A DNA stretch of 64,000 nucleotides from Aureimonas sp. Leaf324 (lineage in GTDB: Bacteria; Pseudomonadota; Alphaproteobacteria; Rhizobiales; Rhizobiaceae), in the NCBI RefSeq assembly GCF_001423245.1, contig NZ_LMOH01000008.1, forward strand, positions 974 to 64,973. Reading direction: 5' to 3'. The translations under genes and the position numbers were made by a program. The notes under the pieces are model-generated. The model was given only the letters and a program-made list of their open reading frames with translations. It was not told where the DNA came from and searched no databases. Below, piece after piece: positions 4,112-64,000 of the stretch. Each line of letters starts with the position of its first letter. The first letter of the stretch is position 1.

Positions 4112-4996
4112 GGCTTGTCTCTCTCGGCCATCCGCATCTTCGAAGCCGCCGCGCGCCACGGCACGTTTCGCGCGGCGGCGAGTGAGTTGAACTTGTCGCC
4201 GAGCGCCGTCAGCCACGCGATCGTGAAGCTGGAACGCGACCTCGGCACGCCGCTCTTCGACCGCTCGGCGCGCGCCATCCGCCTGACCGGCGACGGCGAA
4301 ATCCTGATGCGGCACGTCTCGGCCGCCTTCGAGGAGCTGCGGCGCGGCGTCGAAAGCGTGTCGGCGCGGCGCTCCCGCCTCCTGCGGCTGCACAGCGCGC
4401 CGAGTTTCGCCGCCCAGATTCTGTCGCCGCGCCTGCCGACCTTTCTCGCCGCCCATCCGGGCCTCGAAGTGCGCATCGCCGCCTCCACCGAATATGTGCG
4501 CTTCGTCGATGGCGAGTTCGACGCGGATATCGTCTACGGCAAACCGTCGGGCGACCATCTCGTGATCGAACCGCTCGGCGAGGAACTGGTGACGCCGCTC
4601 TGCGCGCCCGAGATGGCGATGGGCATCCGCGTGCCCTCCGATCTTCTGACGCGCATCCTGATCCGCAGCGACAACAAACGCGTGCGCTGGCCGGATTGGT
4701 TCGCCGCCAACGGGCTGACGGCCCCGGCGACCCAGGCCATGAGCTTCGACCGCTCGTTCCTCGCCATCGCCGCGGCGGCCGACGGCCTCGGTGTCGCGCT
4801 GGAATCGACGCGTCTCGCCCAGCGCGAGATCCTGTCGGGAAAGCTCGTCGCCCCGCTCGTGGGTCGCACTCGCGACCTCCGCTACATCGGCCACCACCTC
4901 TGCTACCCGAAGTCCGGTTCGCAACGCCGGCTCGTGAGCGCCTTCGCCGAGTGGCTGCGCGCCGAACTCGGAACGCCCGCGCCGCTCGCCGAATGA
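4103..4996 (+). CDS. LysR-family transcriptional regulator (GcvA-like)
   Basis: 297 residues. The N-terminal winged helix-turn-helix reads MLNGLSLSAIRIFEAAARHG, then FRAAASELNLSPSAVSHAI and LERDLGTPLFDR, which is the GcvA-type LysR signature. Residues about 90-290 form the periplasmic-binding-protein-like effector domain. It is transcribed away from the SDR-dctPQM operon and towards the isomerase/transketolase genes, so it may control both sides. The start codon sits inside an inverted repeat, consistent with self-regulation. The effector is unknown. Confidence 0.92.
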   Translation: MLNGLSLSAIRIFEAAARHGTFRAAASELNLSPSAVSHAIVKLERDLGTPLFDRSARAIRLTGDGEILMRHVSAAFEELRRGVESVSARRSRLLRLHSAPSFAAQILSPRLPTFLAAHPGLEVRIAASTEYVRFVDGEFDADIVYGKPSGDHLVIEPLGEELVTPLCAPEMAMGIRVPSDLLTRILIRSDNKRVRWPDWFAANGLTAPATQAMSFDRSFLAIAAAADGLGVALESTRLAQREILSGKLVAPLVGRTRDLRYIGHHLCYPKSGSQRRLVSAFAEWLRAELGTPAPLAE

Positions 4997-5001
4997 GCAA
5001 G

Positions 5002-5016
5002 TGAATTTCATTCAAC
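5002..5016. promoter_or_regulatory. Candidate LysR half-site pair upstream of isomerase gene
   Basis: TGAATttcATTCAAC resembles TGAATctgGTTCAAC at 4082-4096. Sharing of this symmetric motif between the LysR promoter and the region before the isomerase suggests that the 4103 regulator controls both. This is inferred from the sequence only. Confidence 0.4.
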
Positions 5017-5158
5017 GGACGGTTAGAACTTCGCGTTTGTTGAAGTAGCCTTCACCGTCCCATCCTGCACGCCAAGGAGAGCGGGGGCTTCGGGCGCCGG
5101 GAGGGTGCCCGCCCCCGGCTCGCGGCGTCGGACGCCGCAGGGCATGCGGGGTTTGGGG

Positions 5159-6037
5159 ATGGAGACTGGGGGAGAGAGGCAAAGCGCCACGGCCGCGCGC
5201 GAGCGGATCATTTCCGTTTCGGCCGCGCCCTACGACGGCTACGATCCGGCCGAGGCGTTCGAGAGCCTCGCGCGGGTCGGCGCGACCCATGTCGAGCCCG
5301 CCTTCATCGTCGGCTATACCGAACCGTTCGACGAGAGCGCCTTCGCGCCGGCGCAGGCGACGGCGTACCGCCGGCTGAGCGAGGCGAGCGGCCTCGCCTG
5401 CACGGCCATGTCCTCCCATATCGACCTCGGCCTGCCGGACGCGGTGGAGGTTTTCACCGGGCGCATGCGCTTTGCCGGCGCGATCGGTGCGCGCATCATC
5501 GCCACCAACGCCGCCGCGCGGGCTCGACAGGCCGCCTTCTTCGCCAACATGGACGTGCTTCTGCGCCGTGCCGAGGAGATCGGCCTGACGATCGCGCTCG
5601 AAAATCCGGGCGACGGCAGCGACAACCTTCTCGATACGGCCGCCGACGGTCTGGCGCTGGTACGGCGCTTCGGCTCCGATCGTCTCGGCCTCAACTACGA
5701 CGCCGCCAACACGGCCTCGCATCGGCCGGCGCTTGGCGACTTCGCGGGCGATGCGATCGTCGCCATGCCGGCCTGCGTCCATATCCACGTCAAGGATCTC
5801 GTGCGCCGCGAGAGCGGGTGGCATTTCACCCCGATCGGCGAGGGCACGATCGGCTGCGCGCGCATCCTGGAAGCCGCCCGCGATCGCCCGTCGATGCCGA
5901 TCAGCCTGGAGCTTCCGCTGCGCCTTCACCGCCGCCCGGATGCCCAACCGGTACGCCGGCCGGAGCCCGTGCCCCTGGCCGAAATCGAGGACGCCCTGCG
6001 CCGGTCCCTCGCAACCGTGCGATCGGCTCTGAAATGA
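5159..6037 (+). CDS. Sugar-phosphate isomerase/epimerase-like TIM-barrel protein
   Basis: About 292 residues of the AP endonuclease-2/xylose-isomerase-like TIM-barrel family. Supporting stretches are ISVSAAPYDGYDPAEAFESL at the start, IGLTIALENPGDGSDN (metal-binding Glu strand), LGLNYDAANTASH (Asp/His-type ligand strand) and VHIHVKDLV (His ligand). Relatives interconvert or epimerise ketoses and keto-sugars. The ATG at 5159 is the best-placed ATG, but an in-frame ATG at 5105 and unseen non-ATG starts near 5200 remain possible because no clear ribosome-binding site is visible. It probably works with the transketolase downstream. Confidence 0.75.
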   Translation: METGGERQSATAARERIISVSAAPYDGYDPAEAFESLARVGATHVEPAFIVGYTEPFDESAFAPAQATAYRRLSEASGLACTAMSSHIDLGLPDAVEVFTGRMRFAGAIGARIIATNAAARARQAAFFANMDVLLRRAEEIGLTIALENPGDGSDNLLDTAADGLALVRRFGSDRLGLNYDAANTASHRPALGDFAGDAIVAMPACVHIHVKDLVRRESGWHFTPIGEGTIGCARILEAARDRPSMPISLELPLRLHRRPDAQPVRRPEPVPLAEIEDALRRSLATVRSALK

Positions 6038-6041
6038 CGAC

Positions 6042-6060
6042 GTTGAAGCTGAGCTAAACT
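6042..6060. promoter_or_regulatory. Candidate LysR-type site before transketolase genes
   Basis: GTTGAAGCTGAGCTAAACT matches 14 of 19 positions of the perfect palindrome at 9026-9044 in front of the second LysR gene. It lies about 85 bp before the transketolase start. It may be a weaker site for the 8039-9004 regulator. Confidence 0.3.
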
Positions 6061-6143
6061 GCGGAGCCCGTTTCCGCCAATGACGCCGCGATCGTGCCGA
6101 GCCTATGGTCGGCGCGTCCGCCATCCGCCGACCGGGAGAGACC

Positions 6144-7001
6144 ATGCAGGACGAAAACCGCCCCCCCGCCGCCCTTTCCAACGTCTCACTGGCGCGGCGC
6201 GCCTGGAACATCCGGCGCAAGGCGCTCCTGATGGGCGAGGTGCAGGGACAAGGCTACATCGGCCAAGCCCTCGGCATCGCCGATGTTCTGGCCGCCTCCT
6301 ACTTTCACGCGCTGCGCTACGATCCGGCGGAGCCTGAGTGGGAGGAGCGCGACCGCTTCCTCCTGTCGATCGGCCACTACGCCATCGCGCTCTATGCGGT
6401 GCTGATGGAAGCCGGGATCCTGCCCGAAGAGGAGCTCGAGACCTACGGCATGGACGACAGCCGCATGCCGATGTCTGGCATGGCCACCTACACGCCCGGC
6501 ATGGAGATCACCGGCGGCTCGCTCGGCCACGGGCTCGGCATCGCCGTCGGGATGGCCATGGGGCTGAAGCGCAAGAAGAGCGACCGCTTCGTCTACAACC
6601 TGATGTCCGACGGCGAGCTCGGCGAAGGCTCGACCTGGGAGGCCGCCATGGCAGGCGCCCACCACAAGCTCGGCAATCTCATCTGCCTCGTCGATTTCAA
6701 CGACCAGCAGGCGGACGGCAAGTCGACCCAGATGCTCTCCGCCGAGCCGCTCCTCGACAAGTGGACCGCCTTCGGCTGGCATGCGCAGCGCGTGGACGGC
6801 AACGACATGTCGGCCGTCGTCGCCGCGCTCGACGCGGCGCGCAACCATGCAGGCGACCAGCCCCGCGCCATCGTCTTCGACACCTTGATGTGCAAGGGCG
6901 TGCCCTTCCTGGAGACGCGCGAGATCACGCATTTCGTCCGCGTCGAGAAGGACGAATGGGCCAAGGCCCTGGCCGTTCTGGAGGAAGGGAAGCCCGCATG
7001 A
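6144..7001 (+). CDS. Transketolase, N-terminal (TPP-binding) subunit
   Basis: 285 residues. This is the pyrophosphate-binding half of a split transketolase: GSLGHGLGIAVGMA is followed by the TPP motif MSDGELGEGSTWEAAMAGAH and VDFNDQQADG. The ATG at 6144 is chosen because a GGGAGAG ribosome-binding site precedes it by five bases; the longer frame from 6105 lacks one. Split transketolases are common in bacterial carbohydrate-catabolic clusters, where they move two-carbon units between ketoses and aldoses. It overlaps the C-terminal subunit gene by ATGA, so the halves are made together. Confidence 0.93.
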   Translation: MQDENRPPAALSNVSLARRAWNIRRKALLMGEVQGQGYIGQALGIADVLAASYFHALRYDPAEPEWEERDRFLLSIGHYAIALYAVLMEAGILPEEELETYGMDDSRMPMSGMATYTPGMEITGGSLGHGLGIAVGMAMGLKRKKSDRFVYNLMSDGELGEGSTWEAAMAGAHHKLGNLICLVDFNDQQADGKSTQMLSAEPLLDKWTAFGWHAQRVDGNDMSAVVAALDAARNHAGDQPRAIVFDTLMCKGVPFLETREITHFVRVEKDEWAKALAVLEEGKPA

Positions 7002-8035
7002 CCCATGCATCCATGGCCCGCAAGTACCAGCCGCGCCGCGTGATCCCCGTCGGCGAGCGCGTCGCCACCTCCGCCATGATCGCCTCGCTCGCGGCCGAAG
7101 GCTACGAGACCGAGAACGCCCCCTTCGGCCACGCTCTGGTGGAACTCGCCAGGACGGACGAGCGCGTCGTCGGCCTGTCTGCGGATCTGGCCAAGTACAC
7201 CGACCTGCACATCCTCGCTCAGGCGATGCCCGAGCGCTTCTACCAGATGGGCATGGCCGAGCAGGTCATGGTCTCGGCGGCGGCGGGCCTGGCGCGCGAG
7301 GGCTTCCTGCCCTTCGCCACGACCTACGCCGTCTTCGCCTCGCGAAGGGCCTACGACTTCATCGCCATGGCGATCGCGGAGGAGAACCTTCCCGTCAAGA
7401 TCGTCTGTGCCCTGCCCGGCCTGACCACAGGCTACGGCCCGAGCCACCAGGCGACGGAGGATCTGGCGATCTTCCGCGGCCTGCCGAACCTCACGATCCT
7501 CGATCCCTGTGACGCGGTGGACATCCGCCAGTCGGTCGCCGCCATGGCGGCCCATCCCGGCCCCGTCTATTCGCGCCTCCTGCGCGGCAAGGTGCCGGCG
7601 GTGCTGAACCGCTGGAAGCCCGACTACCAGTTCGAGATCGGCAAGGCGCAGGTGATCCGCGAGGGCAAGGATGTCCTCGTGATCTCGTCGGGCTTCATGA
7701 CCATGCGAGCGCTCGACGCCGCCGAGCAGTTGGCCAAGGACGGAATCGACGTCGCCGTTCTCCATTCGCCGACGATCAAGCCGCTCGACACGCAGACGAT
7801 CCTGCGCGAGGCGGGCCGGGGCGGGCGACTGGTGGTCACCGCCGAGAACCACACAATCGTCGGCGGGCTCGGAGAGGCGGTGGCGGGCACGCTCCTGAGC
7901 GCCGGCGTCACGCCGACCTTCCGCATGATCGGCCTGCCGGACGAGTTCCTGGAGGCTGGCGCCCTGCCGACGCTCCACGACATGTATGGCATCTCGGTGC
8001 CGAAGATCGCCGAGCGCATCAAGGGTTGGCTCTGA
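6998..8035 (+). CDS. Transketolase, C-terminal (pyrimidine-binding) subunit
   Basis: 345 residues starting at ATG 6998 in overlap with the preceding stop. It contains the pyrimidine-domain features FYQMGMAEQVMVSAAAGLAR (catalytic Glu in MAEQ), the FATTYAVFASRRAYDF strand and the GPSHQATED loop. The C-terminal swivel domain includes VTAENHTIVGGLGEAVA. With the 6144 gene product it forms the complete TPP enzyme. Its stop lies only three bases from the stop of the convergent LysR gene, so there is no room for a separate terminator. Confidence 0.93.
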   Translation: MTHASMARKYQPRRVIPVGERVATSAMIASLAAEGYETENAPFGHALVELARTDERVVGLSADLAKYTDLHILAQAMPERFYQMGMAEQVMVSAAAGLAREGFLPFATTYAVFASRRAYDFIAMAIAEENLPVKIVCALPGLTTGYGPSHQATEDLAIFRGLPNLTILDPCDAVDIRQSVAAMAAHPGPVYSRLLRGKVPAVLNRWKPDYQFEIGKAQVIREGKDVLVISSGFMTMRALDAAEQLAKDGIDVAVLHSPTIKPLDTQTILREAGRGGRLVVTAENHTIVGGLGEAVAGTLLSAGVTPTFRMIGLPDEFLEAGALPTLHDMYGISVPKIAERIKGWL

Positions 8036-54509: not shown

Positions 54510-56405
54510 TCAGAAGTCCTCCCACTCGGAGGCTGCGGGAGCCGACTTCAGGGCCGCGCCGCCGCGGCCCGTGCTGCGCATCTGCGCGACGCCGGTCCGG
54601 GGCTTGGCCGGGCGCGCCGCGGACGCGGCGGGTGCCGCCGAGCGGATCTGGAAGCGCCGCGTGAGGGCGGCGAGCCGCTCGGTCTCCTCGGTCAGGGCGT
54701 GCGCCGCCGCCGTCGTTTCCTCGACCATCGCCGCATTCTGCTGCGTCACGTGATCCATCTGATCGGCGGCCGATGCGACCTCCTTCAGACGCTGGGCCTG
54801 CTCGCTGGCGCTGTCGGCGATCCGCGAGACGATCGCGCTGACGTCGCCGACCTTGGAGACGATCTTTCCGAGCGACGAGCCCGAAGCGGAGACGAGTTCG
54901 ACGCCGATCGCGACCTGCGAGGCGGAGCTCGAGATCAGCGACTTGATCTCCTTGGCCGCCTCCGCCGAGCGCTGGGCAAGCCCGCGCACCTCCTGCGCGA
55001 CAACCGCGAACCCCCGGCCGGCCTCGCCGGCACGCGCGGCCTCGACGCCGGCGTTCAGCGCCAGAAGGTTGGTCTGGAAGGCGATCTCGTCGATCACCCC
55101 GATGATCTTGCCGATCTGGTCGGACGAGGTCTTGATCGCGCCCATCGCGGCCACCGCGCGGGCCACGATCTCGCCCCCCGCCGCCGCATCGCGTTCGGTC
55201 CCGGTCGCGGCCTTCTGGGCGTCGCCGGCGCCGGTAGCCGTTCCGTCGATGGCGACGGTCACGTCGGCCAGCGCCGCGACGGTCTCCTCCAGCGACGCGG
55301 CCTGCTGTTCGGTGCGGTGCGCGAGGTCGTTCGAGGCGCTCGCGATCTCCCCGAGGCCGAGGCGGATCGTCCCGATGGATTCGACCACCGTCCCGATCGC
55401 GCCCTCGAGGGCCTCCACCGACGTGTTGAACGTCCGCCGGATGGGCTCGAACTCGGGCGCGACGGCCGCGGCCATGCGCACGGTGAGGTCGCCCTGGGAG
55501 AGGCGTTCGAAGCTCTGCTCCACAAGGTGGACGAAGACGCGCAGGTCCTCCGACTTGGCCTGATCGACCGCCGCCTGACGGGCGATGCCGGCGGCGCGGA
55601 CCTCGCGGCTGGCCTCGGCGTCCGCTTCGAGGCGGCGCTTTTCGAGGGCGGCGTCCTTGAAGACCTGAACGGCGCCGGCCATGTCGCCGATCTCGTCGCG
55701 GCGCGCCGTGGCGGGGATCTCGACCGACGTGTCCCCTTCGGCGAGACGGCGCATCGTGCCGGTCAGCCCGACGATCGGGCGCGAGATCGTGCGCACCAGC
55801 AGCCATCCCATGAGGAGCGCGATGGCGCCGCTGATCGCGAGCGAGCCGATCATCGTGCGCAGCGACATGGCGTTCGCGGCCTCGGCCGCGGCGCTGTTCG
55901 AGGCGATCAGCTCGTCCTGGATCTTGAGCGCGTCGTCGAGGAGGTCGTAGGCCTGCGTCAACGGAAACTGCTTGGGCAGCGCCAGCGCGTCGGGCCGGGT
56001 CGCGGGATCGCGTCCGAGCTCGATCATGCGGTTGCCGGCCTTCTCCCACCAGGTCTCGACCACGGCGCGCGCCGCCGAGACCTTCGCCTTCTGCTCGCTC
56101 GACGGCGACAGCGCGAGGAAGCCGTCCGCGGCTTTCAGGAAGCCGGCCTTCGCGTCCGCGTAGGTCTTCAGGAAGCGTTCCTCGCCCGTCAGGAGGTTGT
56201 TGCCGATGGCGTTCTGCTGCCGGTAGAGCGAGGCGCGCATGCGCTCGGCCTGGAGCGAGGCCAGGAAGTTGCTGGTCTGCGCCCCGTTCGCGACCGAAGC
56301 GTCGGTCAGGCTCGACCAGAGCATGCCGTTCGCGGCCAGGAGCACGGCCATGATCGCCGCGAAGGCGAAGACGATCTTTCGGGAAATGGTGATCTTCGGC
56401 AGCAT
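54510..56405 (-). CDS. Methyl-accepting chemotaxis protein
   Basis: 631 residues. TM1 at about 11-31 ([20 protein letters not shown]), a periplasmic helical sensor to about 185, TM2 about 188-208 ([19 protein letters not shown]), HAMP domain ([20 protein letters not shown]), then a long signalling coiled coil whose tip reads [33 protein letters not shown]. The C-terminus EWEDF is a CheR-docking pentapeptide variant, so adaptation by methylation is expected. The sensed ligand is unknown. Confidence 0.95.
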
Positions 56406-58373: not shown

Positions 58374-58782
58374 GGCGGACGGATAGGGTGCGTGTCGGCA
58401 AAAGAAAAGACGAGGATCCGTAAGAAGCCGCGCGTTATCCGGCATCCTCCTGCCCGAGGCGTCCGGTCCCACCCTGCGACGGGCCTCCCCTCGCCGACCG
58501 TTTATCCGCTTGATGGCCGCAAGCGCCAGCGCCGCCGTCGTCGGCGCACTGCCAGGATACGGATGGGGCAACCGATCATCCGCGCATCCGATCACCGCGT
58601 GGTCGCGGAAAAAACGAAACGGAGGCGCGCCCCTTGCGAGATCGGGAGGGCGGTCCGCTGCGCCAGCGCCGGAGGCCGGGTTGGATCGCCGGGCGCATCC
58701 GGTCGCGGCGGAACACATTTCCGTGCGCTTCGTTTGATCGGGACACCTCGTGCCGAAAGGCTCGTTCTTCGGATCCCGCACC
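58374..58782. other. Intergenic region between GNAT and efflux genes
   Basis: About 410 bp between divergent genes, expected to hold both promoters. Short frames are not protein-like. No operator with clear symmetry was found and no regulator gene is adjacent. Confidence 0.45.
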
Positions 58783-60051
58783 ATGCTCGATGAATCCCGC
58801 CTCCCCTGGGCCAACGGCGATGCCGACGGTTCGATCGCCATCAACCCGGAAGGACGGGCCGGCGAGCGGGATCACGCCGAGGCGCGGGCGCCCGATGAGC
58901 GAAAGGTCCAGCCCGCCCCCGAACAGGGCCGCACCGACGCCCGCGACGAAGCGAAGCCGGACACGGGCGGTGACGACAAGGCCGATGAAACGGCCGACAA
59001 GACGGCCAAGCGTCCCTCGATCCTGCGCCGGCATCCCTTCATCGTGCTTCTGGTGCTGATCGCGATCGTCGCGGCGGCGGTGGGCGGCTACATCTACTGG
59101 CAGACGGCGATCTACCCGTACGAATCGACCGACGACGCCTTCATCGATTCCCGCCAGTTCGCCATCTCGCCGCAGGTCGCGGGCTACGTCTCGGAGGTGC
59201 CGGTGTCCGACAACCAGCATGTCGAGGCCGGCGCCGTCATCCTGCGCATCGATCCGCGCGACTACCAGGCCGCGGTCGACGAGGCGGAGGCGCGCATCGC
59301 GGCGGCGCAAGCCGCGATCAGCGGCGCGGACGCGCAGATCGCCGCGCAGCAGGCGCAGGTCGTCGAAGCCCAGGCCGCCGTCACGCAGAACGAGGCGAGC
59401 GTCCAGTTCGCGCAGGAGGAGGCCGCCCGCGCGCAGCAGCTCGTCCGCTCCGGCGCCGGCACGGTGCAGACCGCGCAGCAGCAGACCTCGAACCTGCGCC
59501 AGGCGGAGGCCGAGCTGAACCGCTCGCGCGCCGCGGTGACCGCGGCGGAAAAGCAGGTCGGCTCGCTCCAGGCGCAGCGCGCCACCTCGGTCGCGGACCT
59601 GCGCGAGGCCAACGCCCAGGCCGCCCAGGCCAAGCTCAACCTGTCCTACGTCACCGTGACCGCCGCCCAGCCGGGCCGCGTCGTCAAGCTCACGGGCGCG
59701 GTCGGCCAGTATGTGCAGACCGGGCAGAGCGTCGCCATGTTCGTGCCGGACGACATCTGGGTGACCGCCAACTTCAAGGAAACGCAGATCACCGACATGC
59801 GGCCGGGCCAGCCCGTCGACATCCGCATCGACGCCTACCCGGACCATGAGATCCGCGGCCATGTCGATTCCGTGCAGCCCGGCTCGGGCACCGCCTTCTC
59901 GCTGCTGCCGGCCGAGAACGCCACCGGCAACTACGTGAAGGTCGTGCAGCGCGTGCCGGTGAAGATCGTGGCCGACGGCTGGCCGCAGGACGTCTCGATC
60001 GGCCCGGGCATGTCGGTCGTGCCGACCGTCACCGTTCGCGCCAAGGACTGA
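58783..60051 (+). CDS. HlyD/EmrA-type membrane-fusion protein
   Basis: 422 residues from ATG 58783 (GTG 58750 is a possible earlier start). Features: a charged 85-residue N-terminal tail, one membrane segment (FIVLLVLIAIVAAAVGGYIY), ESTDDAFIDSRQFAISPQVA G, a lipoyl-like hairpin with a long Ala/Gln-rich coiled coil (about 180-285), and the beta-barrel domain (VTVTAAQPGRVVKLTGAVGQ). It bridges an inner-membrane DHA2 pump to an outer-membrane channel. The pump gene follows five bases later. The N-terminal tail is longer than usual. Confidence 0.93.
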   Translation: MLDESRLPWANGDADGSIAINPEGRAGERDHAEARAPDERKVQPAPEQGRTDARDEAKPDTGGDDKADETADKTAKRPSILRRHPFIVLLVLIAIVAAAVGGYIYWQTAIYPYESTDDAFIDSRQFAISPQVAGYVSEVPVSDNQHVEAGAVILRIDPRDYQAAVDEAEARIAAAQAAISGADAQIAAQQAQVVEAQAAVTQNEASVQFAQEEAARAQQLVRSGAGTVQTAQQQTSNLRQAEAELNRSRAAVTAAEKQVGSLQAQRATSVADLREANAQAAQAKLNLSYVTVTAAQPGRVVKLTGAVGQYVQTGQSVAMFVPDDIWVTANFKETQITDMRPGQPVDIRIDAYPDHEIRGHVDSVQPGSGTAFSLLPAENATGNYVKVVQRVPVKIVADGWPQDVSIGPGMSVVPTVTVRAKD

Positions 60052-60056
60052 CCCCG

Positions 60057-61655
60057 GTGTCCGCCGCGACCGCCGCCCCCGCCAAGCCGGCGGGCGCCGG
60101 CAATCCATGGGTGATCGCCGTCGTCGTGTCGATCGCGACCTTCATGGAGGTGCTGGACACCACGATCGCCAACGTCGCGCTGCGCTACATCTCGGGCGGC
60201 CTCGGCGTCTCCTCGGACGAGGCCTCGTGGGTGGTCACGACCTATCTCGTCTCCAACGCCATCACGCTGACGGCCTCCTCGTTCATCGCCAAGCGCTACG
60301 GGCGCAAGCGCTTCTATCTCGCCTGCCTTGCGGTCTTCACGATCTCCTCGGTCCTGTGCGGTCTCGCCTGGAACATCGAGTCCCTCCTGTTCTTCCGCAT
60401 CCTGCAGGGGTTCGCAGGCGGCGGCATGGTGCCGATCTCGCAGTCGATCCTCGCGGACTCGTTCCCGCCCGAGAAGCGCGGCCAGGCCTTCGCGCTGTTC
60501 GGCGTCGCGGTCGTCGTCGCGCCCGTCGTCGGGCCGACGCTCGGCGGCTGGCTGTCGGACAACGTGTCCTGGCACTGGTGCTTCCTCATCAACGGGCCGG
60601 TCGGCGTCCTCGCCTTCGCGCTGGTCTGGTTCCTCGTCACCGAATCCGACGAGGCGCGTCAGGAGCGCGAGGCGATCAAGAAGAAAGGCATCCGCTTCGA
60701 CATCGTCGGCTTCCTCGCCGTCGCGACCTTCCTCGGCGCCCTGGAGCTCGTGCTCGACCGCGGCCAGACCGAGGACTGGTTCGGCTCGAACTTCATCATC
60801 GTCTCGGCGACCGTCTGCGTCCTCGCCTTCCTGTTCATGATCCCGTGGGAGCTTCGCCACGAGAACCCGGTGGTGGATCTGCGCATGGTCGCCAGCCGGC
60901 AGTTCGGCTCGTGCTTCCTCGTGATGATGGCGACCGGCGCGATCCTGATCGCGACCACCCAGTTCGTGCCCGAACTCCTGCAGAGCTTCTACGGCTACAC
61001 GGCGACCTGGGCGGGCATGGCTCTCTCGCCGGGCGGCATCGTCACCATGACGATGATGTTCGTGGTCGGGCGGGTGACCGCGATCGTGCAGCCGAAATAC
61101 CTGATCGCGCTCGGCGCGGCGATCGTGGCGGCCGCCATGTGGGATCTCACGCGCCTCTCGCCCGACGCCAACTTCGGCTACTTCGTCTGGTCGCGCATCT
61201 TCGTCGGCCTCGGCCTGCCCCTGATCTTCATTCCGATCACCACCGCGTCCTACGACGGCATCCCGAAGAACAAGACCGACCAGGCCTCGGCCCTCATCAA
61301 CGTCGCGCGCAACGTGGGCGGCTCGATCGGCGTGTCGATCGCGCAGAACACGCTGGCCTTCCGCGAGCAGTTCCACCAGAGCCGGCTGGTCGAGCACATC
61401 ACCCCGTCGAGCCCCGCCTATCACCAGACGATGGAGGCGACGGTCGCGATGCTGCGCGCTCGCGGCCTTTCGGCGCCGGACGCCGAGCAGAGCGCCATCG
61501 CGCTGATCGGGCAGACGCTTCAACAGCAGGTCGGCTATCTCGCCTATATCGACGTCTTCCACGTCCTGATGCTGATCTCGCTCTGCGCGGTGCCGCTGGC
61601 GCTGATCCTGCGCAACGTGAAGCCGGGCGGCGGAGCGCCGGCCGGCGCCCACTGA
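60057..61655 (+). CDS. DHA2-family (EmrB/QacA) drug efflux MFS transporter
   Basis: 532 residues from GTG 60057, fourteen predicted membrane segments. Motifs: TFMEVLDTTIANVALRYISG (DHA2 motif D1), LASSEASWVV-like loop as GVSSDEASWVVTTYLVSNAI, FIAKRYGRKRFYLACLAVF (motif A) and VVVAPVVGPTLGGWLSDN (motif C of drug antiporters). It exports drugs or host compounds by proton antiport with the EmrA-type partner upstream. Confidence 0.94.
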   Translation: MSAATAAPAKPAGAGNPWVIAVVVSIATFMEVLDTTIANVALRYISGGLGVSSDEASWVVTTYLVSNAITLTASSFIAKRYGRKRFYLACLAVFTISSVLCGLAWNIESLLFFRILQGFAGGGMVPISQSILADSFPPEKRGQAFALFGVAVVVAPVVGPTLGGWLSDNVSWHWCFLINGPVGVLAFALVWFLVTESDEARQEREAIKKKGIRFDIVGFLAVATFLGALELVLDRGQTEDWFGSNFIIVSATVCVLAFLFMIPWELRHENPVVDLRMVASRQFGSCFLVMMATGAILIATTQFVPELLQSFYGYTATWAGMALSPGGIVTMTMMFVVGRVTAIVQPKYLIALGAAIVAAAMWDLTRLSPDANFGYFVWSRIFVGLGLPLIFIPITTASYDGIPKNKTDQASALINVARNVGGSIGVSIAQNTLAFREQFHQSRLVEHITPSSPAYHQTMEATVAMLRARGLSAPDAEQSAIALIGQTLQQQVGYLAYIDVFHVLMLISLCAVPLALILRNVKPGGGAPAGAH

Positions 61656-61657
61656 GC

Positions 61658-61703
61658 GACGCGCGGCCGGGGCCGGGGCCGGGAGCCGGGCGGAACGCGC
61701 GTC
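61658..61703. terminator. Inverted repeat between convergent efflux and BLUF genes
   Basis: GACGCGCG (61658-61665) and CGCGCGTC (61696-61703) enclose a GGCCGG-rich loop in the 46-bp gap between convergent stops. It could act as a two-way terminator. Confidence 0.4.
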
Positions 61704-62142
61704 AGGCCGCCACTTCCTCCTCGATCGTCAGGTCGCGCAGGAGCGTGTGGATCTCGTCGCCGCTGAGGCGCGACGGGTCGAAGCCGCTCGATGCGCCCAC
61801 AGTCTGGAAGCGGTCCGCATCGCGGTCCGACGCGCCGACGAAGCCCATCGCCCAGTTCGGGAAGCTGCGCGCGGCGATCGGATCGAGGGCGAGGAGCGCG
61901 ACTTCGCCGTGCCGTTCATCCTGCTGGATCCGCTCGAAGGCGGCCTCGATGGTGGCGAGCGGGCCTTCGAGGACCTGCGCGAAGCAGCCGGCGTTGAAGA
62001 GGAGCGCGCCGGTAATCCCGTCGCGGGCGTTGTTCGTCCGGCTCCGGGCGAGGATGTCGTCGACATGGGCCGCGAACGCCGCGGCGTCGCCGGAAATGTG
62101 ATTGCGGCTGTAGTAGACGAGGCGGTGCAGGCTAGCGGTCAT
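61702..62142 (-). CDS. BLUF-domain blue-light photoreceptor
   Basis: 146 residues, a single BLUF domain. All flavin-photocycle residues are conserved: Tyr10 in RLVYYS, Asn37/Asn38 in SRTNNARDGITG, Gln56 in FAQVLEG, and Trp97/Met99 in FPNWAMGF (compared with PixD/AppA numbering patterns). BLUF proteins bind FAD and signal through hydrogen-bond rearrangement. The ATG overlaps the stop of the GGDEF-EAL gene (ATGA), so the two are co-translated and the BLUF protein probably modulates that enzyme or reports to it in trans. Confidence 0.95.
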   Translation of the reverse strand: MTASLHRLVYYSRNHISGDAAAFAAHVDDILARSRTNNARDGITGALLFNAGCFAQVLEGPLATIEAAFERIQQDERHGEVALLALDPIAARSFPNWAMGFVGASDRDADRFQTVGASSGFDPSRLSGDEIHTLLRDLTIEEEVAA

Positions 62143-63776
62143 CGGGCGTGTCCCTCGCGGTCCTTGATATGCTGGGTCAGGAAGGCTTCGACGTCGCCGG
62201 CCGGCATCGGGCGGCCCGTCAGATAGCCCTGGACGTGCGTGCAGCGCTCCTCCCGGATGCGTGCGAGCTGTTCGGCGGTCTCGACGCCCTCGGCCGTGAT
62301 CGCCATGCCGAGACTGGTGCCGAGCCCCGCGACGGCGCGAAGGATCGCCTCGCTGTCGGCGTTCGCGTTGGCGACGAAGGAGCGGTCGATCTTGATCTTG
62401 TTGAACGGAAACTTCTGGAGATAGCTGAGCGACGAGTAGCCGGTGCCGAAGTCGTCCATCGAGATCTTGACGCCGAGGTCGCTGAGGGCCGCGAGCGTCT
62501 TCAGGACGTTGTCGGTGTCGTCGAGGAGAACCCCCTCGGTGATCTCGATCTCCAGACGGTGGGCGGGCAGGCCCGACTTCTCGAGCGCCGAGGCGACGGT
62601 GGCGAGCAGCGTGTCCGCCTTGAACTGGAGGGGCGAGACGTTCACCGCGACGATCATCTCGCCCGGCCAGGACATCGCCTCGTGGCAGGCCGTCCGCAGC
62701 ACCCATTCGCCGATCCTGACGATCAGGCCGTTCTCCTCGGCCAGCGAGATGAAGTCGAGCGGAGGGATGGAGCCCTTCGTCGGGTGCTTCCAGCGCAGGA
62801 GCGCCTCGAACCCGATGCAGGTGTCGGTGGCGAGATCGAGGAAGGGCTGGAAGTTCAGCTCGAACTGCTTCAGCGCCAGCGCCCGGCGCAGGTCGATCTC
62901 CATCTCGCGCCGCTTGTGCAGGAGCTCGTCCATGCCGGCCTCGAACATCCGGTATCGACCGCGACCGGCGCGCTTGGCCTCGTAGAGGGCGAGGTCGCCG
63001 TTGCGCAGCATGTCCCGCGCCTGGGTGACCGAGCCCTGCAGCGCGACGCCGACGCTGGCCCCGATGTTGATCGTGTGGCCGCTGAGGACATAGGTCCGTC
63101 CCACGAGATCGACGATCCGGGCCGCGAGCTTCTCGGCGTCCGCCGCCTCGCGCACGCCCGCTTGCAGGACGACGAACTCGTCGCCGCCGAGCCGCGCCAC
63201 GACGTCGCCCTTGCGGCAGGCGCTGACGAGACGGTCGGCGACCTTCTTCAGGAGGAGATCGCCGATCCCGTGTCCGAGCGTGTCGTTGATCATCTTGAAG
63301 CGGTCGAGGTCGAGGCAGTGGACCGCGATCGGCGCCTCCTCGCTGCGGGCGAGCGCGCCGGTCAGGTGCGACAGGAACATGTTGCGCTTCGCCAGCCCGG
63401 TCAGGTCGTCGAGGTCCGAGGCGATGGCGGGGCGGTCCTGCGTGGCCGAGGGGCGCAGATCGACCACGAACCGGCCCTCCCCGACGGGCGCGAGGGTCGC
63501 GTCGTAGGGAACGTCCCCTTTCGTCGTGAGACTCATGGAGGCGCCCCGGCTCGCGTCGAGGGCGGGAAGCGCCAGGCCGGAGCCGAGGTCGCGCACGTTC
63601 AGCCCGACGACCCATCCGCCGAACGCGGCTTCGGCCGCTGCGTTGGCATAGGTCACCGTCCCCTCAGCGCCCAATGCCAGCACCGGATGGGGAAGCGCCT
63701 GGAGCATCAGCTCGAAACCCGGCGCCTCGAGGGCGAGGACTGGCGCCGCCGGCGCAGCGGGTGTTAGAACGTTCAT
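62139..63776 (-). CDS. PAS-GGDEF-EAL cyclic di-GMP signalling protein
   Basis: 545 residues from ATG 63776 (MNVLTPAAPAAPVLALEAPG). An N-terminal PAS-like region (about 20-110) precedes a GGDEF domain (RLGGDEFVVL, 195-204) with an RxxD inhibitory site five residues ahead (RKGD, 188-191). The EAL domain follows, with IGFEALLRWK (EAL 324-326), VNVSPLQF, IEITEGVLLD and MDDFGTGYSSLSYL intact, so both synthesis and hydrolysis are possible. No membrane segment is seen. The frame from 63956 adds Arg-rich sequence with no domain. Confidence 0.93.
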   Translation of the reverse strand: MNVLTPAAPAAPVLALEAPGFELMLQALPHPVLALGAEGTVTYANAAAEAAFGGWVVGLNVRDLGSGLALPALDASRGASMSLTTKGDVPYDATLAPVGEGRFVVDLRPSATQDRPAIASDLDDLTGLAKRNMFLSHLTGALARSEEAPIAVHCLDLDRFKMINDTLGHGIGDLLLKKVADRLVSACRKGDVVARLGGDEFVVLQAGVREAADAEKLAARIVDLVGRTYVLSGHTINIGASVGVALQGSVTQARDMLRNGDLALYEAKRAGRGRYRMFEAGMDELLHKRREMEIDLRRALALKQFELNFQPFLDLATDTCIGFEALLRWKHPTKGSIPPLDFISLAEENGLIVRIGEWVLRTACHEAMSWPGEMIVAVNVSPLQFKADTLLATVASALEKSGLPAHRLEIEITEGVLLDDTDNVLKTLAALSDLGVKISMDDFGTGYSSLSYLQKFPFNKIKIDRSFVANANADSEAILRAVAGLGTSLGMAITAEGVETAEQLARIREERCTHVQGYLTGRPMPAGDVEAFLTQHIKDREGHAR

Positions 63777-64000
63777 GGCGGCGTCCACGTCATGGCCAGG
63801 AAGCCGCGAGCATGGCAGGCAAAGGTTAGCGAAGACGCGTCGCGCCAATCGATCGCGTCGCGCCTTCCGACATTTTCGGCGCCACGGCATCCTCCTCGAA
63901 GGTTGGACGCGACGGCCTTCGGATGTCCCGGCGACGGAACCGGATCGCGCTCGCACACGCCCGCTGGCGGTCGCCCGCGCTTTGTCGCAAGGATGCGCGC
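63777..64000. other. Upstream region of the GGDEF-EAL/BLUF operon
   Basis: No gene recognised up to the window edge. It should contain the operon's promoter; no clear operator is seen. Confidence 0.4.

Follow-up and report, generated by a model that had tools for sequence, protein, structure and literature searches.

The locus raises the question of whether a short BLUF protein and the cyclic di-GMP (c-di-GMP) enzyme encoded next to it form one unit through which blue light acts on c-di-GMP turnover. The window, by which we mean the whole analyzed stretch of 64,000 nucleotides from Aureimonas sp. Leaf324, carries both genes. The original prediction of a BLUF gene and a PAS-GGDEF-EAL gene sharing an ATGA overlap was confirmed with exact coordinates (Table 1). 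The GGDEF, I-site, EAL, and DDFGTGYSS motifs that it had called intact were all found in the translated enzyme, with EAL at residues 324-326 and DDFGTGYSS at residues 441-449. The photocycle residues claimed for the BLUF protein (Y10, N38, Q56, W97, and M99) were also present, and they were invariant in the 71-73 paired BLUF relatives readable at each position. We take these five positions to be important for the photocycle. Passages of PMC8508746 support their importance in part.

Table 1. Features of the BLUF/GGDEF-EAL gene pair in the window, and a further BLUF locus of the same genome
Feature	Position	Strand	Basis
Short BLUF protein (PapB-like), 146 aa	61702..62142	-	Translation; PF04940 1.2e-27
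BLUF domain core, residues 5-100 (Y10, N38, Q56, W97, M99)	61843..62130	-	Pfam range; conservation
BLUF protein C-terminal part, residues 106-145, two predicted helices	61708..61827	-	AlphaFold2 model
PAS-like-GGDEF-EAL partner enzyme, 545 aa	62139..63776	-	Translation; Pfam; AlphaFold2 model
ATGA overlap of enzyme stop and BLUF start codon	62139..62142	-	Sequence
PAS-like N-terminal domain, residues 21-109	63450..63716	-	Model topology; PAS families in relatives; sub-cut-off here
GGDEF domain, residues 121-273	62958..63416	-	Pfam
I-site RxxD (RKGD), residues 188-191	63204..63215	-	Sequence
GGDEF motif, residues 197-201	63174..63188	-	Sequence
EAL domain, residues 295-523, ten catalytic positions intact	62208..62894	-	Pfam; alignment of partners
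Locus of the second BLUF gene and the divergent HWE histidine kinase gene (own genome, contig C1)	L086 4831-5868 and about 5994-6263	- and +	

The BLUF protein showed one further Pfam match, a weaker and overlapping one to TEX47 (6.5e-06). Its AlphaFold2 model had a pLDDT of 80.7 with two helices at the C-terminus, and the closest solved BLUF structure was Tll0078 (1x0p), with E values of 1.5e-17 by sequence and 4.7e-13 by fold. In the enzyme, GGDEF and EAL were assigned by Pfam at E values of 4e-38 and 1.1e-68, and the model (mean pLDDT 84.1) returned GGDEF-EAL and PAS-GGDEF-EAL structures as top Foldseek matches, e.g., 5m3c and 5xge. The latter match is PA0861 of Pseudomonas, presumably RbdA, which shares the PAS-GGDEF-EAL domain order of the window enzyme and for which we know of no BLUF partner. 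While the GGDEF-EAL part of the predicted domain order stood, the PAS label was less certain, and a PAS call from Pfam alone was dropped because the best match within the first ~110 residues stayed under the cut-off (E 0.0038, 17.7 bits vs. 22.6). PAS families were matched in 26-29 of 36 enzyme relatives at E ≤ 1, with PAS_8 in 29 of them (best 4.6e-07), and the strand-helix order of residues 21-109 in the AlphaFold2 model is compatible with a PAS fold.

A Na+/H+ exchanger gene lies upstream of the enzyme; it is read from the plus strand, begins at about 63923, and extends past the window (L085 2297-3985). Downstream of the BLUF gene, and convergent with it, lie genes for an HlyD-type adaptor and an MFS pump (58750-61655), which we take to be EmrAB-like. 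With these neighbors on either side, the BLUF and enzyme genes form an isolated two-gene unit; a promoter and terminator scan of 61500-64000 returned zero sites of either type. Other signaling genes occur in the surroundings. Positions 54510-56405 encode a methyl-accepting chemotaxis protein that has HAMP and a stretch resembling CHASE3 (just under the CHASE3 cut-off), and a second GGDEF-EAL protein of 1004 aa with GAF and PAS domains lies ~1.7 kb past the window end (L085 4041-7052, minus strand). The second BLUF gene of the genome is of another type and is divergent to the gene of a PAS/LOV-like HWE histidine kinase with the motif GRNCRFLQG, presumably a LOV signature, so that the two are likely adjoining blue-light sensors. 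The closest named relative of the window BLUF protein came from an uncultured Aureimonas (96% identity), and two short BLUFs are listed for Aureimonas ureilytica in a passage of PMC4844311.

A genomic survey, which the original prediction had proposed as a check, showed the pairing to be conserved beyond chance. The BLUF profile matched 13 of 21 Aureimonas genomes at 212-249 bits, with all other BLUF matches at 66 bits or below, and the enzyme profile reached 788-901 bits in exactly those 13 genomes, with the next best match at 614. Both genes were adjacent in 13 of the 13 genomes carrying them, and 8 of the 21 had neither gene of this type. Among 278 distinct BLUFs (identical sequences removed), an EAL gene was located directly upstream, i.e., within 450 bases on the same strand, for 73 of 76 at ≥ 160 bits vs. 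7 of 202 others; the profile and the 160-bit line were built from paired members, which makes the 73 of 76 partly circular, and the genome sample was non-random and uneven, so the direction of the contrast is trusted and its exact figures are not. The 52 loci of the named-genome scan were found by BLUF sequence alone, independent of the enzyme. Distances between BLUFs correlated with those between EAL domains at r of 0.93 over 66 pairs, a value inflated by shared ancestry, compared to 0.92 for EAL and GGDEF within one chain.

Exceptions occurred on both sides of the line. The enzyme that lies 400 bases from L030, counted among the 73, is unrelated, and the high-scoring L293 and L309 have no enzyme adjoining. 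The order is reversed in L051, from a Methylococcaceae relative, with BLUF first and GGDEF-EAL second (4989-7268). The seven low-scoring BLUFs with an upstream EAL gene were L245, L246, L296, L297, L209, L097, and L226, of which L296 and L297 are Rhodopseudomonas-like pairs (see below). L209 is a second, diverged GGDEF-EAL/BLUF pair in a genome (G349) that carries the standard pair as well. L226, the only fusion candidate among the gathered loci, had been considered a natural GGDEF-EAL-BLUF fusion that would prove contact, which was rejected, as it is a gene pair with frame breaks. Tandem BLUF genes were seen in several genomes of the order (L175/L202, L176/L203, L239, and L240), with no EAL or GGDEF match in the retrieved stretches.

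At the order level, 14 of 397 genomes had a BLUF of the pair type (≥ 160 bits). Among 385 genomes sampled from the class, the window's own was the sole carrier, and of 398 sampled from the phylum, four reached this score, plus two diverged pairs at ~136 bits. The two genes are inherited jointly but patchily, and the close linkage of this BLUF type to one enzyme type spans several families of Pseudomonadota.

A clean enzyme-BLUF junction was found in 46 of the 52 loci, with the enzyme frame ending -11 to +47 bases ahead of the BLUF start; 18 junctions overlapped (9 by four bases) and 28 were spaced by 2-47 bases, with start codons chosen by script. The ATGA sequence was therefore rejected as a conserved feature. 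The remaining six loci comprise L015, L022, L031, and L048, with enzyme pieces upstream in broken frames, as well as L051, with the enzyme downstream, and L030, with the unrelated enzyme only. Within the 46, the initial part of the enzyme is missing from L008, which joins those four as a broken or incomplete frame, and L052 starts near a contig end. In a fast tree of 248 BLUF domains, made after 36 identical sequences had been removed, 71 high-scoring BLUFs clustered with 3 changes vs. a shuffled mean of 62; they were not cleanly split off from the rest by any single branch, and 96 of the 245 inner branches were unresolved. Residues 14, 50, 52, 55, 66, 70, 73, 120, and 128 were kept in paired BLUFs and rare elsewhere, which serves only as a lead, given that the profile behind this set came from paired members. 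E66, E70, and Q73 sit on one predicted helix of the AlphaFold2 model and may mark the face that contacts the enzyme. The BLUF alignment (A2) held 29 rows from clean-junction loci plus L048.

The two enzymatic domains of the partners differed in conservation. The ten scored EAL positions were all unchanged in each of the 74 complete partners, while the ten GGDEF positions were intact in 54 of 73 readable partners, with one or two changes in 6 and three or more in 13; these sets exclude rows with cut or frame-broken GGDEF or EAL positions, count AGDEF in L011 as intact, and include L030, L097, and L209, whose branches are long and whose enzyme may be a different one. The scored positions are those that we take to be catalytic. 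On a tree built without those GGDEF columns, at least four changes between intact and degenerate GGDEF were counted. In the window's own 30-member branch, GGDEF was intact in 29 members, with one change in L027 (Devosia), and of the two I-site residues, R was kept in 44 and D in 48 of 49 partners. As GGDEF decays in several groups and EAL never does, light control in general cannot depend on synthesis, and the light output shared by the family is most likely c-di-GMP hydrolysis. Since GGDEF is intact in 29 of 30 members of the window's branch, synthesis may matter there, and the window enzyme may also synthesize c-di-GMP. Its earlier description as a dual c-di-GMP enzyme thus holds for the two intact motif sets, at the level of sequence, while hydrolysis is the probable common output.

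The closest counterpart among known systems is PapB-PapA, whose primary study is reportedly that of Kanazawa 2010. According to passages of PMC8846402, the short BLUF protein PapB of R. palustris acts as a negative regulator of biofilm formation in blue light; together with the solo EAL protein PapA it forms a blue-light-activated heterotetramer, and its signal is probably relayed through the C-terminal helices. Lower biofilm formation in blue light via PapB is also reported in part of PMC4844311. This precedent removes the novelty that the original prediction had seen in a stand-alone BLUF protein that regulates an EAL enzyme, and its view that fusion prevails among known cases is contradicted by a census given in PMC4844311, in a passage of which 64% of bacterial BLUF proteins are short. 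The window pair resembles PapB-PapA in its short BLUF protein with photocycle residues and no domain besides the TEX47 match, and in the separation of this protein from an EAL enzyme with intact catalytic residues; adjacency is a feature of the window pair. In contrast to PapA, described as a solo EAL, the partner in the window combines EAL with an intact GGDEF domain, an I-site, and a PAS-like domain, and the pair was therefore filed as a variant of PapB-PapA and not as a member.

A form closer to PapB-PapA was found in the family-level sample, where 33 of 149 genomes had a BLUF match and five genomes of one phototrophic genus were among the matches listed. Further members of that genus that lack a match may lie in the part of the sample outside the listing. 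Photosynthetic reaction-centre genes were present in all five listed genomes and absent from the window's genome. In three tested genomes, the M chain matched PDB 6z5r at 572-583 bits vs. 472-475 for the next chain, and as 6z5r is from R. palustris (passage of PMC7806223), the genus is presumably Rhodopseudomonas. The gene pair occurred in 5 of 5 of these Rhodopseudomonas-like genomes with intact EAL and degenerate GGDEF (EADEF, DADEF, YGDQF, YGDQF, and EGDKF), whereas GGDEF and I-site are intact in the window pair. Three other BLUF stretches retrieved from two of these genomes (L291, L293, and L295) had no EAL neighbor. PapB-PapA is likely the Rhodopseudomonas form of this gene pair, although PMC8846402 describes PapA as a solo EAL protein and the five partners retain a degenerate GGDEF.

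Other systems are further removed. BlrP1 of Klebsiella and BldP are BLUF phosphodiesterases in which BLUF controls c-di-GMP hydrolysis (passage of PMC8846402). While BlrP1 is a single fused chain, the window holds two proteins with the enzyme gene first and PAS-like and GGDEF domains added, and no BLUF and EAL were found in one chain there. YcgF/BluF of E. coli is also fused and antagonizes a repressor, and its EAL is degenerate, without phosphodiesterase activity (abstract of PMC3509220), whereas the window EAL is intact at its ten catalytic positions. PixD of Synechocystis and Thermosynechococcus includes the nearest solved relative, Tll0078; its output is listed as PATAN-CheY in part of PMC5812497, and the neighboring partner in the window is a GGDEF-EAL enzyme instead. 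Among the matches listed from open PMC titles, abstract starts, and passages, no description of a GGDEF-EAL/short-BLUF gene pair was found.

The two-protein blue-light/c-di-GMP unit that had been predicted is strongly indicated by the conserved adjacency of the genes, by their joint presence and absence, and by PapB-PapA as a precedent. The pair is a real, conserved two-gene unit, and we consider it probable that it works as a PapB-PapA-like blue-light switch for c-di-GMP and is probably homologous to PapB-PapA. The gene structure, the motifs, the conserved pairing, and the unequal conservation of EAL and GGDEF are shown by the present data; we infer the complex, the light effect, and the direction of that effect. 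The enzyme would be translated first and the BLUF protein next from the same message, which would favor assembly of a complex. By analogy with PapB-PapA and BlrP1, blue light would switch the flavin hydrogen bonds of the BLUF protein and move its C-terminal helices; contact of these helices with the EAL domains would then increase c-di-GMP hydrolysis. Further inputs would come from the PAS-like and GGDEF domains. As its GGDEF is intact, the Aureimonas enzyme may synthesize c-di-GMP in darkness, hydrolysis being the putative family-wide output.

The BLUF protein could instead shift the enzyme between GGDEF synthesis in the dark and EAL hydrolysis in the light, so that light would flip its sign. 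The intact GGDEF residues of most partners, and of nearly the whole window branch, together with the mostly kept I-site speak for this, but the repeated decay of GGDEF beside an unchanging EAL means that light control needs no synthesis, and a GGDEF domain beside EAL can serve as a GTP-responsive regulator, as described for degenerate ones in a passage of PMC3989770; we regard such a switch in sign as unlikely. Another reading, in which the BLUF protein has its main targets elsewhere and the operon provides common expression only, would follow BlsA, a short BLUF protein with several partners (passage of PMC9948694). The close linkage to one enzyme type across families of Pseudomonadota and the joint presence and absence in Aureimonas make it very improbable.

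The light response might also stay local, confined to a small pool of c-di-GMP or passed directly to an effector by contact, without a global switch between motile and sessile life. Eight places in the genome, the window enzyme included, match the partner profile below E 1e-130, and such a wealth of related enzymes would suit local action, while the reported lowering of biofilm formation through PapB argues against it. Local action, which we hold to be possible though doubtful, is compatible at the molecular level with the PapB-PapA-like switch favored here. The genome has five flagellin-type and two PilZ matches, so that a two-protein light switch between motile and sessile life, as originally predicted, is possible and no more.

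The principle of a separate BLUF protein controlling an EAL enzyme is already known; added here are the joint inheritance of the pair, the contrast between EAL and GGDEF conservation, and the variant with an intact GGDEF. A more speculative idea, which we put forward tentatively as rather improbable, is that the pair is a reversible light toggle in which one short BLUF protein controls both synthesis and hydrolysis of c-di-GMP by one bifunctional enzyme, with several lineages including Rhodopseudomonas having lost the synthesis part and keeping only the light-activated hydrolase (PapA). If true, the family would form a natural series from a toggle to a one-way light-activated hydrolase. The results suggest that PapB-PapA belongs to a conserved but patchy gene pair found in Aureimonas, Rhizobium, Sphingomonas, Methylorubrum, methanotrophs, and others, most members of which keep an intact-looking synthesis domain, while Rhodopseudomonas-like members have lost GGDEF integrity. 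The separation of sensor and enzyme would be handy for optogenetics, and the pair makes it testable whether light can control both directions of c-di-GMP turnover.
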